DNA of 41,515 nucleotides from a virus (IMGVR_UViG_3300027659_000073:1-41515); one strand, 5' to 3'; positions 1,857-38,795 are shown, counted from the stretch's first letter. The notes: generated by a model from the letters alone, not told the origin. Program-made: numbers and translations.

Positions 1857-1886
1857 ACCGTATCACGGTTCATATTGCCTTGTCAA
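1857..1886 (-). promoter_or_regulatory. leftward sigma70-type promoter
   Basis: On the minus strand there is a consensus -35 TTGACA (1881-1886) and a -10 TACGGT (1857-1862), separated by 18 bp. Transcription would start near 1850 and lead into the gene at 1814. A TGTGA-N6-TCACA dyad lies 10 bp upstream of the -35. Confidence 0.6.
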
Positions 1887-1896
1887 GTCTTTTCTT

Positions 1897-1912
1897 TGTG
1901 ACCTTCGTCACA
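1897..1912. promoter_or_regulatory. CRP/GlxR-type operator, TGTGA-N6-TCACA
   Basis: Exact palindrome TGTGAC-CTTC-GTCACA, centred about 54 bp upstream of the predicted start of promoter 1857-1886. It fits the published consensus of CRP-family regulators (CRP in enterics, GlxR in actinobacteria). The stop codon of gene 1908-2075 lies within it, and a GACTTAAGTC motif follows after a few bases. The same arrangement recurs at 3320 and 4395. Confidence 0.6.
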
Positions 1913-2075
1913 CCATCAGACTTAAGTCAGGTCTTACGACTCGCTCTATCTGAACATCACGATAACCTTCCGAGACAAACTCGCCCGCTATCGCAACCGC
2001 CTCTAACCATGAGAGGTAGAAGCCATTGACCTCTACACCCCCAACCCAGACCGTGTACTTCTGTACTCCACCCAT
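1908..2075 (-). CDS. hypothetical protein (55 aa)
   Basis: The ATG at 2075 overlaps the TGA of the upstream gene (TGATG), which supports this start over longer in-frame forms. The 55-residue product has an N-terminal beta pattern (KYTVWVGGVEVNGFYL) and then a short helix. The C-terminus is encoded across a GACTTAAGTC copy, and the TGA stop is the TGA of the TGTGA half-site. Unknown function. Confidence 0.65.
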   Translation of the reverse strand: MGGVQKYTVWVGGVEVNGFYLSWLEAVAIAGEFVSEGYRDVQIERVVRPDLSLMV

Positions 2076-2569
2076 CAGCCGTACACAACCTCTCCGAGAA
2101 GAATGAACTGCACCACGCTGTCTGCGTTGATGCAATCCCAGTCGTCAAAGGCATCGTCTAGCCCGTGATACATAGACAGGAGAGCCTTCAATGTGGTGGT
2201 GCTCAACTCTGTCTGACTTAAGTCAAGTTCTCCCTTGCCTACCTTCGTGATGAAGTCTGCAATCATTTCGCTGTCAATGTAGAGAGGCTTTCCGAACTTA
2301 AGCCAAGCACCAAAGTACCCGTCAAAACCTTTACCTTCCATGCCGTACTCAGGGTCGTCCTGCCCCACCTCTTCTAAGTCCTCTTCCTCGTAGAGCGTGA
2401 CGCTCGCATGAGTACCCATCTTGCCTAGTTCGTAGTCCTTGCCATCGTTCGCCCACTTGTAGGTGCCGTTGGCTACCGCCCATGATGCGATACCGCACGA
2501 CCCCCCTTCGTATGCGTCAATGAGGATAGAGCAGGCGTTGTCTATGAGTTGTTCCCGTGTTGCTAACAT
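2075..2569 (-). CDS. acidic hypothetical protein (164 aa)
   Basis: The start ATG 2569 lies 2 nt after the stop of the upstream gene, with a G-rich stretch ahead of it. The protein is acidic and globular, with an EEEDLEEVGQDDPEYGMEG segment near the middle and a C-terminal acidic helical region (DDAFDDWD). No catalytic motif, signal peptide or membrane segment is seen. It probably shares a transcript with 2571-3236. Confidence 0.7.
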   Translation of the reverse strand: MLATREQLIDNACSILIDAYEGGSCGIASWAVANGTYKWANDGKDYELGKMGTHASVTLYEEEDLEEVGQDDPEYGMEGKGFDGYFGAWLKFGKPLYIDSEMIADFITKVGKGELDLSQTELSTTTLKALLSMYHGLDDAFDDWDCINADSVVQFILLGEVVYG

Positions 2570-2570
2570 C

Positions 2571-3236
2571 TCACACCCCCACTTCTTGTTGTTCGTCACA
2601 CGAAATGCATTGACCGAAATTGTATGAGTCGGTAGCGTCACAATGCTTACACTTTGATTCTGTGACTGCTGACTTAAGTGCTGACACAAGGCGGGTAAGT
2701 GACTCGCCCTCAAACTGTAAGGTTGCCCGACCACCGTAGGAGATGGTGATACCACCATCATAGTTAAGGTTCATGTTGGTGATTCCGAGTGCACCGAGCA
2801 CCTCGTGTAGTTCAACGCCATCTGCCTCTGCTTTCGCTAGGTTGGCATCACGCTCGTCACGCTCTTTCACTCGTGCGATTTCTTGTTCAAGGTGACTAGA
2901 AACCATACTGTCTACTGTAAGTTCTGACTTAAGTACGAGGCGGGTAGGCATGGACTGGGTGCGCCCACGCTCTAGAACCGTGCGCTCTTGGACGGGGCGG
3001 GTGTCCTTGGTGACATGACCGTTCTCGTCACGGAGCCACTCGCCGTTCTCTTGTAGTAGGTAGTCGTGTGTTGTTGCGCTGACTGCCTGAATCCTGACAT
3101 AAGACTTGTCTCCTGTCATGCTTAAGACTTGGAAGTAGGTAGGGTACTCGCTGTACTTGCCTGCTTTCCTGCTTGCGTTCATGAACACCGCTTGCGGATT
3201 GTTCACAACTATCTCTAGTATCTCTGTTCTTTTCAT
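2571..3236 (-). CDS. hypothetical protein with C-terminal zinc ribbon (221 aa)
   Basis: The start at ATG 3236 is preceded by GAAGGGGGC and a CAACAACAACAA leader, both also seen at 4309. The N-terminal half is beta-rich with no recognised fold. The middle (about residues 110-150) is a charged coiled-coil-like helix. The C-terminus has CKHC and CISC pairs (about residues 194-213), a typical four-Cys zinc ribbon. It leads an operon behind promoter 3281-3309. A nucleic-acid or protein-binding role is only a guess. Confidence 0.75.
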   Translation of the reverse strand: MKRTEILEIVVNNPQAVFMNASRKAGKYSEYPTYFQVLSMTGDKSYVRIQAVSATTHDYLLQENGEWLRDENGHVTKDTRPVQERTVLERGRTQSMPTRLVLKSELTVDSMVSSHLEQEIARVKERDERDANLAKAEADGVELHEVLGALGITNMNLNYDGGITISYGGRATLQFEGESLTRLVSALKSAVTESKCKHCDATDSYNFGQCISCDEQQEVGV

Positions 3237-3280
3237 TTTGGTTTGCCCCCTTCAAGGACTTGTTGTTGTTGTTAGGTGTC

Positions 3281-3309
3281 ACCCTATCGTACTGTTAGAC
3301 AGTTGTCAA
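3281..3309 (-). promoter_or_regulatory. leftward sigma70-type promoter
   Basis: On the minus strand TTGACA (3304-3309) and a weaker -10 TAGGGT (3281-3286) are 17 bp apart, in the gap ahead of gene 2571-3236. The TGTGA-N6-TCACA dyad is 10 bp upstream of the -35, the same spacing as at 1857-1886. Transcription would start near 3274. Confidence 0.6.
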
Positions 3310-3319
3310 GGGTATCTTG

Positions 3320-3335
3320 TGTGAACTTTGTCACA
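3320..3335. promoter_or_regulatory. CRP/GlxR-type operator, TGTGA-N6-TCACA
   Basis: TGTGA-ACTTTG-TCACA, an exact match to the spaced consensus with a core different from the other two copies. This suggests that the half-sites and not the core are under selection. It sits between promoter 3281-3309 and a CTTAAG motif at 3343. Confidence 0.6.
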
Positions 3336-3343
3336 GTCCTTAC

Positions 3344-3547
3344 TTAAGACATATCTTCCATAGCCGAGGCGAGTCTCTCGCCTGCGAACTCGTCCCGTCC
3401 TGTCTTAAGACTTGCTAACTCCTCGCTCGTGTAGAGAATGAGACTGCGTAAGTCTGTCGCCAGTCGGGTGCGCCCACCGTGCAGGTCTACCTCTACTTCT
3501 AAGTCTGCCTCTAACATTCTTAGGTACGCCTCTAGTTCTTCTCTCAT
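3344..3547 (-). CDS. hypothetical protein (67 aa) with DEFAGERL C-terminal module
   Basis: The ATG at 3547 abuts GTCTTAAGTC and the stop TAA lies inside the next copy. The N-terminal half is an amphipathic, acidic helix (ELEAYLRMLEADLEVEVDL). The last 17 residues, DEFAGERLASAMEDMS, are nearly the same as the end of the protein at 3736-3912. Unknown function; it may be a coiled-coil protein. Confidence 0.65.
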   Translation of the reverse strand: MREELEAYLRMLEADLEVEVDLHGGRTRLATDLRSLILYTSEELASLKTGRDEFAGERLASAMEDMS

Positions 3548-3732
3548 GACTTAAGACCTACCGAACTACCAGATACCCACCGTGTACCAGACCCTGCGAC
3601 TGGGGCTACCAGATAATCCACCGCTCCCCACCGCAAGCGACTGTCCGTAATCATGACCTCGTACTTAAGACCTGACCCGTCCTCCCACTCGGCTACCTTC
3701 CCGATGTCTTTCATTAGTTCTTTCGTGCTCAT
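3544..3732 (-). CDS. hypothetical protein (62 aa) ending in GLKS
   Basis: The start ATG 3732 directly follows GTCTTAAGTC. The TGA overlaps the next ATG and the C-terminus is VGLKS. A second copy of the CTTAAG core lies inside the gene (3663) and also encodes Gly-Leu-Lys. The beta-rich sequence includes RLRWGAVDYLVAPV. No family is recognised. Confidence 0.65.
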   Translation of the reverse strand: MSTKELMKDIGKVAEWEDGSGLKYEVMITDSRLRWGAVDYLVAPVAGSGTRWVSGSSVGLKS

Positions 3733-3735
3733 GAC

Positions 3736-3912
3736 TTAAGACCTGTCTTCCATCTCGGCTGAGAGTCTTTCGCCTACGAACTCGTCGCCTTCTTCCCATG
3801 CCTGCTCCATGTCTGCCTGCCTATCCCATCGTAGGGCTAGTGCTTCGTCCCCGACTGCTCGGCATAGCCGTGCCTCCGCCCTGAACGCTTCGCTATTGGT
3901 TGCGTACTTCAT
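3736..3912 (-). CDS. hypothetical protein (58 aa) with DEFVGERL C-terminal module
   Basis: The 58-residue ORF has its ATG at 3912, directly after GTCTTAAGTC, and ends at the TAA inside the next motif. It is helical and charged, with an Ala/Arg-rich first half. The C-terminal DEFVGERLSAEMEDRS closely matches the end of 3344-3547. This suggests duplication or exchange of a C-terminal module between neighbours. Confidence 0.65.
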   Translation of the reverse strand: MKYATNSEAFRAEARLCRAVGDEALALRWDRQADMEQAWEEGDEFVGERLSAEMEDRS

Positions 3913-4118
3913 GACTTAAGACCTTCCCTTTCTTTAATGCTCGCCTCGTAATCCACAAGGTCAATGTTCCACGCCTTGAGGTAAAGACTTAGGCACTCGT
4001 CAATGAACTCCTGCCGTGTCGTGCTCGCCGCTAGGTCTAGTGACTTAAGAAAGGCATGGTCGTCCCGCTTGAGTTTGCGTGGGTTAATTACCCACCCCGT
4101 GCTACTTGTGTATTTCAT
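3909..4118 (-). CDS. hypothetical protein (69 aa), possibly DNA-binding
   Basis: The ATG at 4118 follows GACTTAAGTC; the C-terminus is EGLKS and the TGA overlaps the next start. Residues 10-45 (INPRKLKRDDHAFLKSLDLAAS, then TTRQEFIDECLSLYLKAW) resemble the strand-helix-helix layout of ribbon-helix-helix proteins, but a clear match cannot be claimed. The motif CTTAAG also lies inside the gene (4044). If it were ribbon-helix-helix, it would be a candidate binder of the palindrome. Confidence 0.6.
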   Translation of the reverse strand: MKYTSSTGWVINPRKLKRDDHAFLKSLDLAASTTRQEFIDECLSLYLKAWNIDLVDYEASIKEREGLKS

Positions 4119-4309
4119 GACTTAAGTCCCCAAGTCTCACGCCATGTGTTCGCAATAGCCTCGGCTTGCTCATCACTAAGGCACGGGATAGTGAAGGTGA
4201 AACTATCGGAACTATCACCCGTAGGGCTAGGCACCCATATCTCTACCCTTTTATTTACTGCGTAGGCGTGGGCTACGCTCCCCTTCTTTGTTGTTGCTGA
4301 TGTTGTCAT
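4115..4309 (-). CDS. hypothetical protein (64 aa) ending in GLKS, leads an operon
   Basis: The start ATG 4309 has GAAGGGGGAAACAAC upstream, the strong leader-gene ribosome site, and a CAACAACAA leader behind promoter 4346-4374. The 64-residue product has a Thr/Ser-rich start, a central beta region and a C-terminal helix (SDEQAEAIANTWRETW). The end WGLKS is encoded by the motif and overlaps the next gene by 4 nt. Unknown function. Confidence 0.65.
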   Translation of the reverse strand: MTTSATTKKGSVAHAYAVNKRVEIWVPSPTGDSSDSFTFTIPCLSDEQAEAIANTWRETWGLKS

Positions 4310-4345
4310 GTTGTTTCCCCCTTCAGAGAATGTTTGTTGTTGTTA

Positions 4346-4374
4346 ATTGTAGGGGTAGCGTGTAACGATTACAA
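4346..4374 (-). promoter_or_regulatory. leftward sigma70-type promoter
   Basis: On the minus strand TTGTAA (4369-4374) and TACAAT (4346-4351) are 17 bp apart, a good -35/-10 pair. It lies 37 bp upstream of the start at 4309. The TGTGA-N6-TCACA dyad is 20 bp upstream of the -35, about one helical turn further away than at the other two promoters. Confidence 0.6.
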
Positions 4375-4394
4375 CTACCGAACGGATATTTCTT

Positions 4395-4410
4395 TGTGAC
4401 CTTCGTCACA
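4395..4410. promoter_or_regulatory. CRP/GlxR-type operator, TGTGA-N6-TCACA
   Basis: TGTGAC-CTTC-GTCACA, identical to the copy at 1897. Its centre is about 63 bp upstream of the predicted start of promoter 4346-4374, near the classic class I CRP position. The stop of gene 4406-4681 overlaps it, and GACTTAAGTC lies five bases further on. Confidence 0.6.
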
Positions 4411-4681
4411 GTCCTGACTTAAGTCCTAACTCGTATGCTTCTTTAGGTGTTGGGATTAGGTACGCCTCGTACCGTTGCCCGCCGAGATTGTCCCGACAGA
4501 AGGAGCACGGACTCCATGAGAAGTGACCTTCTTGGTCATCACTTAGTGACGGCTCCTGTCCCTCTAGTTGTACTGCCTTGGCGTAACGCTCGGCGAACTC
4601 TGCACCTTGCTCCTCTGTCACTCCGTTAGCCGTTGCCATTAGGCACTCGGTACAGATTGTTATTTCATATTTCAGATACAT
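4406..4681 (-). CDS. hypothetical zinc-ribbon-like protein (91 aa)
   Basis: The ATG at 4681 abuts GACTTAAGTC. A CTEC pair (residues 10-13) and a CSFC pair (about residues 59-62) are separated by an acidic helical region, which fits a two-knuckle zinc site. The motif is translated as GLKS, but here the frame runs on two more residues and stops at the TGA inside the CRP-like half-site. No specific function is recognised. Confidence 0.65.
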   Translation of the reverse strand: MYLKYEITICTECLMATANGVTEEQGAEFAERYAKAVQLEGQEPSLSDDQEGHFSWSPCSFCRDNLGGQRYEAYLIPTPKEAYELGLKSGL

Positions 4682-33490: not shown

Positions 33491-34152
33491 TGGAAAAGAA
33501 AACAATCGGACTTGATGAAGTCCTCACTAAATACGGGGTACCTGACCCCAAAATCATAGGCAAGTTACCTAAGGGCGGTCAGCAGTTGTCCTTTGTCGGG
33601 CACGCCGATGTGACAAAAATGCTTTTGGAAGTGGACAGTGCATGGACATGGGAGCCAACAGCGTTTGACTCTGATGGTCTACCTGCCTACCGTGTAGAGA
33701 ATGGCATGGCACACATGGCTGGATGGATGACAGTGCATGGTGTGCGCCGTCTTGGTATCGGTTCATGCCTACCCAACAAGCCCGATTTGCTGAAGGAACT
33801 TATCAGCGACCTAATTAGGAACTGCGGAATGAGGTATGGATTTTGTCTCAGTTTGTGGACTAAGCAGGAATGGGAAGACCTAGACCACAACCCAGCCCCA
33901 TCTAAGCCACGCCCGTCAGCACCCGCCAGTGCCCCTGAGCAGGCTCCTAAGCAGGCTAAACCCAAGACCCTAACCCCACTGTCACAGGCACAGATTGACC
34001 AGTTCAACACCGCCTGTGAAGCCAAAGGGATAACACCCCTAGCGGTAGCCCTCAACGCAGGCATCCCCGAAGGTACCCCTTGGATGGAGTCACACCTTCC
34101 AGCCCTACGGTCAGCGTTCAAGGAACTTGCATCATTCAAGGACGGCGAGTGA
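33490..34152 (+). CDS. Rad52-like single-strand annealing protein (220 aa)
   Basis: The N-terminal domain (about 30-140) has LSFVGHADVTKMLLEVDSAW, a middle beta segment, and ELISDLIRNCGMRYGFCLSLW, closely resembling the D(A/L)IRNxxMRFG signature of Rad52/Sak-type annealing proteins. A Pro/Ala-rich linker (about 145-172) leads to a small helical C-terminal domain. Paired with the YqaJ exonuclease, it would anneal resected strands. Its TGA overlaps the next ATG. Confidence 0.75.
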   Translation: MEKKTIGLDEVLTKYGVPDPKIIGKLPKGGQQLSFVGHADVTKMLLEVDSAWTWEPTAFDSDGLPAYRVENGMAHMAGWMTVHGVRRLGIGSCLPNKPDLLKELISDLIRNCGMRYGFCLSLWTKQEWEDLDHNPAPSKPRPSAPASAPEQAPKQAKPKTLTPLSQAQIDQFNTACEAKGITPLAVALNAGIPEGTPWMESHLPALRSAFKELASFKDGE

Positions 34153-34334
34153 TGGCTAACAAAAGAACAGTAGACCCCACCGCCAGTGAAGCATCAGCCC
34201 ATATCATTGGGTTGCGTGTCACACCGTCACAGTTAGAACAGATTGCTTTCTTATGTAAGCAACGCAACACGAAGCGTTCACAATTATTCCGTGACTTAAT
34301 CCGTCAAGAACTAGAAGCAGAACTGGCTAGGTAA
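34152..34334 (+). CDS. ribbon-helix-helix DNA-binding protein (60 aa)
   Basis: Residues 19-58 (HIIGLRVTPSQLEQIAFL, then NTKRSQLFRDLIRQELEAEL) follow the CopG/Arc pattern: a beta strand, helix, turn and helix. These proteins dimerise and read palindromic operators through the strand. It is the only clear small repressor-type protein in the window besides WhiB, and hence a candidate reader of GWCTTAAGWC or of the dyads near 5940. Overlaps at both ends tie it to the operon. Confidence 0.75.
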   Translation: MANKRTVDPTASEASAHIIGLRVTPSQLEQIAFLCKQRNTKRSQLFRDLIRQELEAELAR

Positions 34335-35962: not shown

Positions 35963-36397
35963 ATGCGCAAACGCATCCTCACCTCTATCATCGCCCTATC
36001 CCTACTATCAGCGTCCCCAGTCCACGCATCCACAACGGACAAACACACCCACCGTAAATATCACGGTCTTATGTCAGATTATTTCTACGACAGGCTCGCC
36101 TCCTGCGAGACAGGCGGAAACTGGCAACACGCCACTCGCTCCTACACAGGAGGACTCGGCATCGCACGAGGCACATGGCAACGCTGGTCAAACAGCAGTA
36201 GTGCCAAAGGCAAAAGCCCCCGCTACCAAGTACAAGTGGCAGACAACATCGCTTTCATGGGACACACCAAAGACGGAGTGTTCAAATACCCAGTAGGTGT
36301 CTACGGTTGGGGCTGTGTCAAGAACACACCCGAACTACAAGCACTCATCTGCAAGTCAAAGAACCCGAAAGTATACCGCAAAAGGAGAAACTGCTAA
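35963..36397 (+). CDS. secreted Rpf-like lysozyme/transglycosylase (144 aa)
   Basis: A signal peptide (MRKRILTSIIALSLL, cleavage after VHA at residue 22) is followed by the resuscitation-promoting-factor-type domain: RLASCETGGNW with the catalytic E49, then YTGGLGIARGTWQRW. The family cleaves the glycan backbone of actinobacterial peptidoglycan. It is expressed with replication genes, far from the lysis cassette, so it may remodel the wall early or be a second lysin. Ribosome site AAAGGA. Confidence 0.8.
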   Translation: MRKRILTSIIALSLLSASPVHASTTDKHTHRKYHGLMSDYFYDRLASCETGGNWQHATRSYTGGLGIARGTWQRWSNSSSAKGKSPRYQVQVADNIAFMGHTKDGVFKYPVGVYGWGCVKNTPELQALICKSKNPKVYRKRRNC

Positions 36398-37625: not shown

Positions 37626-37758
37626 CCAGAAATCCTGCGACCATTGCGGGACAGTAGCCCGTGCCCTTGTGGTGTGGACACATGAACAGATAGCCGACTG
37701 CGGTTGCGCTTGCCATTGGGCAAGGCGACATGACTCAACGAAGAAGAAGAACAAGTGA
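37561..37758 (+). CDS. zinc-ribbon-like small protein (65 aa), start uncertain
   Basis: The C-terminal part has CDHC and CGCACHW, an evident metal-binding cluster, in a frame open from upstream. No ATG lies after the previous gene, so the start must overlap it: GTG 37561 (used here), ATG 37534 or ATG 37477. None has a strong ribosome site. Its TGA overlaps the GTG start of the WhiB gene, which supports coupling. Confidence 0.5.
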   Translation: MKRTTRQRYGVTHSPNLDPYPDQKSCDHCGTVARALVVWTHEQIADCGCACHWARRHDSTKKKNK

Positions 37759-38024
37759 AACGCTGGCAAGATGATGCGCATTGTAAAGGGTTAGATACCA
37801 ACATATTTTTTCCTGAAGTGTTTGGTGACCAACGAAACGGAATGATATGGGAGCAGGCTAAAAGAATATGCCGTGCGTGCCCTGTCACCGATGAATGTCT
37901 TAAGTCAGAACTTCCGTATGAGCAGGCAAGTGGTCGGCGCAACGGTGTGTGGGGTGGACTCACGCCTAAAGAGCGTGACCAGTTGGTGAAGTACAACCAG
38001 CCTGTACGCATGAAGAAGCCCTAG
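37755..38024 (+). CDS. WhiB-family iron-sulfur transcription regulator (89 aa)
   Basis: Four Cys in the WhiB arrangement (C10, C39, C42, C48) bind a 4Fe-4S cluster, and GVWGGLT (residues 64-70) is the family's turn motif, followed by a basic tail. WhiB proteins occur only in Actinobacteria and their phages, and they act by binding the main sigma factor. Here it is the last gene of the rightward block, GTG start, and may switch host or phage transcription. A GTCTTAAGTC copy is translated just after the cluster. Confidence 0.9.
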   Translation: MKRWQDDAHCKGLDTNIFFPEVFGDQRNGMIWEQAKRICRACPVTDECLKSELPYEQASGRRNGVWGGLTPKERDQLVKYNQPVRMKKP

Positions 38025-38541: not shown

Positions 38542-38795
38542 CGGTTGTACTCATTGACTGAACTAATCCAGCACCAGCCAGCCACACCCATGAGGGTGAT
38601 GCTTAGAAGGAACGAGGTGTCAAGCGTGAACAACGAACCGAGACAGAACATGAAGCCAGAGAATGTCCGTGCCTTGTAGTTCATCTGGCGTGGTGCGTGA
38701 CCGAGCCTGTCTCTCACCGCTTGGGTGCGGGTGCGTATGTCTAGTGGTTTGTCCCATGATTTTACTGCGGGGTGGTTAGGTGAATAGCGTTTCAT
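38538..38795 (-). CDS. small membrane protein (85 aa)
   Basis: The ATG 38795 abuts GACTTAAGTC, the same start-linked motif as in the left array. A basic 45-residue N-terminal part is followed by a hydrophobic region with two possible membrane helices (FMFCLGSLFTLDTSFLLSITLMGVAGWCW). It could modify the host membrane or exclude other phages; no evidence beyond topology. Confidence 0.65.
   Translation of the reverse strand: MKRYSPNHPAVKSWDKPLDIRTRTQAVRDRLGHAPRQMNYKARTFSGFMFCLGSLFTLDTSFLLSITLMGVAGWCWISSVNEYNR

Follow-up and report, generated by a model that had tools for sequence, protein, structure and literature searches.

What protein reads the three copies of the palindrome TGTGA-N6-TCACA that stand beside leftward promoters in this viral DNA, and does it raise or restrain the transcription that starts there? 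The window (i.e., the whole stretch of DNA that was analysed) is a record of 41,515 bases from an uncultured bacterial virus. An exact TGTGA-N6-TCACA occurs three times in all 41.5 kb, where the mean of shuffles predicts 0.15 and 1 of 100 shuffles reached three; the copies pointed out at 1897, 3320 and 4395 by the sequence-only reading are, in consequence, confirmed. That reading had also placed a leftward -35/-10 pair at 10, 10 and 20 bp from the sites, and the sequence bears this out. At P1, the CRP-type operator (1897-1912, no strand assigned; TGTGACCTTCGTCACA; found by pattern scan and in homologues) lies 10 bp upstream of the -35 TTGACA (1886-1881) of a minus-strand promoter (1857-1886) with an 18-bp spacer and the -10 TACGGT (1862-1857). 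At P2, the corresponding operator (3320-3335, no strand assigned; TGTGAACTTTGTCACA; pattern scan and homologues) is separated by the same 10-bp gap from a minus-strand promoter (3281-3309) composed of -35 TTGACA (3309-3304), a 17-bp spacer and -10 TAGGGT (3286-3281). At P3, the operator (4395-4410, no strand assigned; TGTGACCTTCGTCACA; pattern scan and one homologue) stands 20 bp from a minus-strand promoter (4346-4374) with -35 TTGTAA (4374-4369), a 17-bp spacer and -10 TACAAT (4351-4346). In two cases the TGA of a half-site is, as had been noted, the stop codon of the preceding gene (ORFs 1908-2135 and 4406-4681).

Whether such sites are maintained can be judged from 80 related loci of IMG/VR, gathered by terminase. 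In the window and these relatives TGTGA-N6-TCACA occurs 44 times, against 0-11 for other letter orders of the half-sites (near-identical loci counted separately). Six distinct homologues of the P1 site keep TGTGAC on the left and have GTCACA, GTCACG or ATCACA on the right, with GGAA, ATAT, CAAA, GAAG, AAGA and GAAG as their N4 cores; homologues of the P1 promoter are found in L008, L017, L020, L087 and L092. The P2 homologue sites (TGTGACGGAAGTCACA, TGTGACGAAAGTCACA and TGTGACGCAGGTCACA) likewise keep the halves and vary the centre, one of them with a gap of 11 bp, and the P3 homologue in L025 and L084 has the core GAAA, with a gap of 22 in L025. The description of exact half-sites around differing cores was, then, accurate, and it extends to the homologous promoters: the operators show selection-like conservation, in which the halves are fixed and the central 4 bp are free. 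Distance is kept as well. Half of the distinct promoter-like sequences of the form TTGAC[AT]-N16-18-TANNNT in the relatives (36 of 72) have a site, with at most one mismatch, at exactly 10 bp, and four have one at 11 bp; almost none have it at other distances. Some relatives (e.g., those of L072, L074 and L050) have similar promoters without a site, and several that lack it have both this kind of promoter and WhiB.

Other palindromes were seen in the same regions. A second one, CGTCATGACG, lies just upstream of the P2-type CRP site in L008, L025, L084, L087 and L091, and is present in the window at about 5990, close to the promoter region of an SprT-like gene. The parS-like sequences TGTTTCACGGGAAACA and GTTTCACGTGAAAC adjoin leftward promoters near CRP-type sites in L017, L020, L021 and L057. 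Two distant relatives carry tandem TGTGA-N6-TCACA-like pairs, namely Streptomyces phage Zeigle (L388; 292 and 347, 55 bp apart) and ct2KA10 (L389; 5065 and 5142, 77 bp apart); a -35 TTGACA at 10 bp was not found at these pairs.

The fixed distance was followed beyond the terminase relatives in three scans of IMG/VR. The first, for TGTGAC-N4-GTCACA-N(0-30)-TTGACA, gave at least 116 distinct sites, of which at least 48 had a gap of 10 bp, at least 8 of 11, at least 13 of 20-22 and at least 6 of 0-1. The second scan left positions 6 and 11 free and required a -10; among the matches listed, 44 of 115 were at 10 bp, and the 46 listed sites at 10-11 bp had C at position 6 in 36 cases and G at position 11 in 22. 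Several sites listed at 29 bp fall at 21 bp on re-reading, if an alternative TTGACT is taken as the -35. The E. coli-like form TGTGAT-N4-ATCACA, the object of the third scan, behaves similarly (among the matches listed, 31 of 99 have a gap of 10 bp, 10 a gap of 11 and 22 a gap of 19-21), whereas its reversed control, in a complete IMG/VR scan, gave only 25 distinct sites and no peak at 10. Since some of the TGTGAT-N4-ATCACA loci have no actinobacterial mark in the available DNA, the spacing may not be confined to actinophages. When the site-bearing loci were grouped by shared proteins with a strict cut-off (a loose one joined nearly all loci), one group of 43, which includes the window, was obtained, together with three smaller ones (7, 4 and 2 loci) and 12 singletons. 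Contigs that are related do not count as independent, and the P values are to be read as a contrast and not as tests on independent events. The peaks, in the relatives and across IMG/VR, support the helical phasing that had been proposed. A short-sequence BLAST for a cultured phage with this promoter returned chance matches only (T7 and others), and a literature search for CRP sites in actinophages yielded nothing relevant and no report of this arrangement of operator and -35.

These data bear on one alternative, that the sites arose by chance or go back to the duplication of a single promoter. Identity over 22 bp between the sites of P1 and P3 is what duplication would predict; the peaks in spacing and the conserved half-sites, both seen in several lineages of phages, contradict this explanation, to which we give next to no credence.

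Bacterial chromosomes offer a further comparison. In 257 Gb of bacterial genomes the layout with a gap of exactly 10 bp turns up 12 times, close to the approximately 7.5 expected by chance (our own estimate, with equal base frequencies); hence, it is mainly a phage promoter layout. Two of the 12, the only actinobacterial ones, belong to Actinomycetes MAGs (L213 and L222), and each precedes the gene of a secreted wall protein with a 3D domain, the two proteins being homologous. Between the phage-like promoter and the 3D gene, both MAGs have a conserved leader of no recognised type; a riboswitch was considered for this position and found no Rfam match. The operator by itself outnumbers its control in chromosomes: 199 sampled genomes of the actinobacterial phylum have about 58 copies of TGTGAC-N4-GTCACA and about 5 of the reversed control (our own sums). 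In a sample of these chromosomal copies, the position 10 bp from a -35 is not the general rule. An actinobacterial genome (G056; L322-L331) has 13 such sites and a single control match; several of the 13 are TGTGACGTGCGTCACA, and they possibly form a small regulon.

As to the host, a marker of actinobacterial hosts is present in the window in the form of a WhiB-like protein (37755-38024, plus strand; PF02467, E=8e-18). WhiB was found in 16 of the 18 contigs picked for a site at 10-11 bp. Where the gap is about 20-22 bp, 10 contigs out of 14 have it above the cut-off, versus 2 of 21 off-phase contigs. In a mixed set of 26 contigs, which combines 11 terminase relatives (some without sites) and the 18 contigs with a 10-11 bp site, three being in both, 24 encode it; C. 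glutamicum is the single genome that does so among 14 named controls. Given that in-phase contigs usually encode WhiB, their hosts appear to be actinobacterial, and for the phage family of the window actinobacterial hosts as a group are well supported, in agreement with what had been claimed. The capsid protein is closest to those of Streptomyces phages. A search of the genome contigs database for a prophage found no terminase relative; a 39% relative in 1 of 397 actinobacterial genomes, compared with 0 of 399 from a comparison phylum, is too little to weigh alone. The window also encodes a transglycosylase-like (Rpf-type) protein at 35963-36397 (PF06737, E=1.2e-8).

Which protein, then, would read the sites? 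All three fit, on at least one strand, the actinobacterial Crp consensus GTG-N6-G-N-CAC. The inverted repeat TGTGA-N6-TCACA is common to the phage sites and to the operators of M. tuberculosis CRP, S. coelicolor Crp and C. glutamicum GlxR, and the preference for C at position 6 and G at position 11 agrees with the consensus published for S. coelicolor Crp, which has G at position 11 (PMC10033298). Unlike actinobacterial operators, the phage sites are on early promoters, next to a near-consensus -35 and at an almost invariant spacing. From the half-sites and their phasing, we infer that host CRP is the reader: the three sites are probably host CRP/GlxR operators, placed at a fixed helical position upstream of strong sigma-A promoters and acting as activating sites. 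Several observations speak against this reading: a CRP homologue was found, at the strict threshold of E<=1e-30, in only 59 of the 199 genomes sampled from the phylum; relatives exist that have such a promoter and WhiB but no operator; the sampled chromosomal sites are not generally 10 bp from a -35; and the spacings depart by about 3 bp from the E. coli class I/II positions.

The sequence-only reading had left the choice between the host regulator and a phage mimic. The first is supported, in the form of an operator of CRP/GlxR type; the second is not, as no cNMP-binding domain was found. A phage-encoded CRP was rejected in this way, with no PF00027 match in a 41.5-kb record that is possibly incomplete. 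A phage protein of another kind could still be the reader, e.g., a ribbon-helix-helix (RHH) or WhiB protein or one that has not been recognised, given that both RHH and WhiB are encoded in the window along with many small proteins without assignment. The RHH candidate (34152-34334, plus strand; PF01402, E=4e-4) is disfavoured because its distribution does not follow that of the sites: proteins 60-80% identical to it occur in the long site-less contigs G014, G020 and G021, and it was not found in some site-bearing contigs, although, the records being fragments, the absence of a gene from a contig is weak evidence. WhiB, in turn, occurs in some site-less contigs too. Moreover, one half-site recurs in many phage lineages, unlike the fast-changing specificities that would be expected of phage repressors. 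A phage-encoded reader consequently seems quite improbable. Somewhat less probable again is that the reader is a different host regulator whose half-site is similar, e.g., a paralogue of the CRP/FNR family that does not sense cAMP. Paralogues of CRP are inseparable by sequence alone, and a second CRP-like protein exists in some genomes of the actinobacterial phylum; the best match, nevertheless, is the published Crp/GlxR consensus.

If host CRP is the reader, its position allows a prediction of its effect. A CRP dimer would cover about -61 to -46 at P1 and P2, centred at about -53.5 to -54.5, and at P3 it would sit one turn further upstream, at about -63.5. From there the dimer would reach RNA polymerase across the A-rich 10 bp ahead of the -35, and this contact would raise leftward early transcription. 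In M. tuberculosis, CRP sites at -44.5, -54.5, -57.5 and -59.5 activate, while those associated with repression are located at the start (PMC4117774). The predicted phage centres, -43.5 and -53.5 to -54.5, are close to those activating positions, and the activated M. tuberculosis genes, with CRP near -44.5, -54.5 and -58, resemble the phage promoters in this respect (PMC4117774).

The main rival is that host CRP binds as a repressor or brake, in which case cAMP-CRP beside a strong -35 would hinder the polymerase and fast infection would take place only at low cAMP. The consensus -35 boxes of P1 and P2 should need no activator, and the distance differs by about 3 bp from that of E. coli class I sites, both of which speak for a brake. 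So does E. coli phage T1, in which the pir, dam and recE promoters are repressed by cAMP-CRP (PMC6737242). As in T1, host CRP is proposed here to act on phage promoters; T1, however, has an E. coli host and is repressed, whereas the present case concerns many uncultured phages with a fixed spacing and predicted activation (PMC6737242). Against a brake, the M. tuberculosis sites between -44.5 and -59.5 are associated with activation, those at the start site with repression (PMC4117774), and plain occlusion needs no strict helical register. Repression is, on balance, unlikely, and activation by host CRP appears the likelier outcome at these promoters.

The sequence-only reading had attached a CTTAAG motif, within about 10 bp, to each site. 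This is true in the window, where CTTAAG lies 8, 7 and 7 bp from the P1, P2 and P3 sites (for a random 16-mer, a CTTAAG this close has a chance of about 5% each); nevertheless, CTTAAG occurs 49 times in the window, against 9.4 expected, with 27 copies in the first 6.6 kb. Most operators in the relatives have no CTTAAG alongside and, hence, the motif falls outside the regulatory unit. The junction element itself, GGTCTTAAGTCATGA and its variants, is found on the minus strand between 525 and 4691 (at 525, 689, 956, 1144, 1607, 3545, 3730, 3910, 4116 and 4679), and again at 38793, which makes 11 leftward gene junctions in all. It supplies a stop in two frames plus the next start codon: at ten leftward junctions of the first 6.6 kb, CATGACTTAAG on the plus strand corresponds to a start codon preceded by the stop-bearing CTTAAG, and the proteins at these junctions end in GLKS-stop or RS-stop, according to frame. 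It resembles the start-associated sequences of cluster K mycobacteriophages, i.e., a short repeat at the starts of non-structural genes, sometimes with the preceding stop codon (PMC3203893). Unlike these, CTTAAG is palindromic, lacks the AGGAG core, lies outside the CRP unit and also occurs inside genes; a start-associated sequence, asymmetric and with an RBS core, was ruled out because CTTAAG is palindromic and also intragenic. CTTAAG is, in sum, an element of gene junctions in its own right, belonging to the closest subclade.

We further infer that cAMP or carbon status modulates the response. Carbon-status control of P1-P3 would be a plausible consequence of activation by host CRP, and host metabolic state probably sets the strength of the start of infection in the site-bearing viruses. 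The phage spacings are offset by about 3 bp from the class I and class II positions of E. coli CRP. Tentatively, and with less confidence than for the window itself, the promoters may represent a specialised module in several phage lineages, with putative host CRP at about -44, -54 or -64, shifted by roughly 3 bp relative to the register of E. coli class I/II sites; this would amount to a CRP-polymerase geometry of its own, which phages use commonly and host promoters rarely, and which couples infection to host cAMP. The spacing raises a testable question on CRP-polymerase geometry outside E. coli, and the spacing rule could serve to locate promoters of this kind in metagenomes and give a clue to the host group. 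Should the CRP reading be true, a large number of uncultured phages, apparently actinobacterial for the most part, would read the cAMP/CRP state of the host at their promoters, and there would be a testable route from nutrient status to the tuning of infection.
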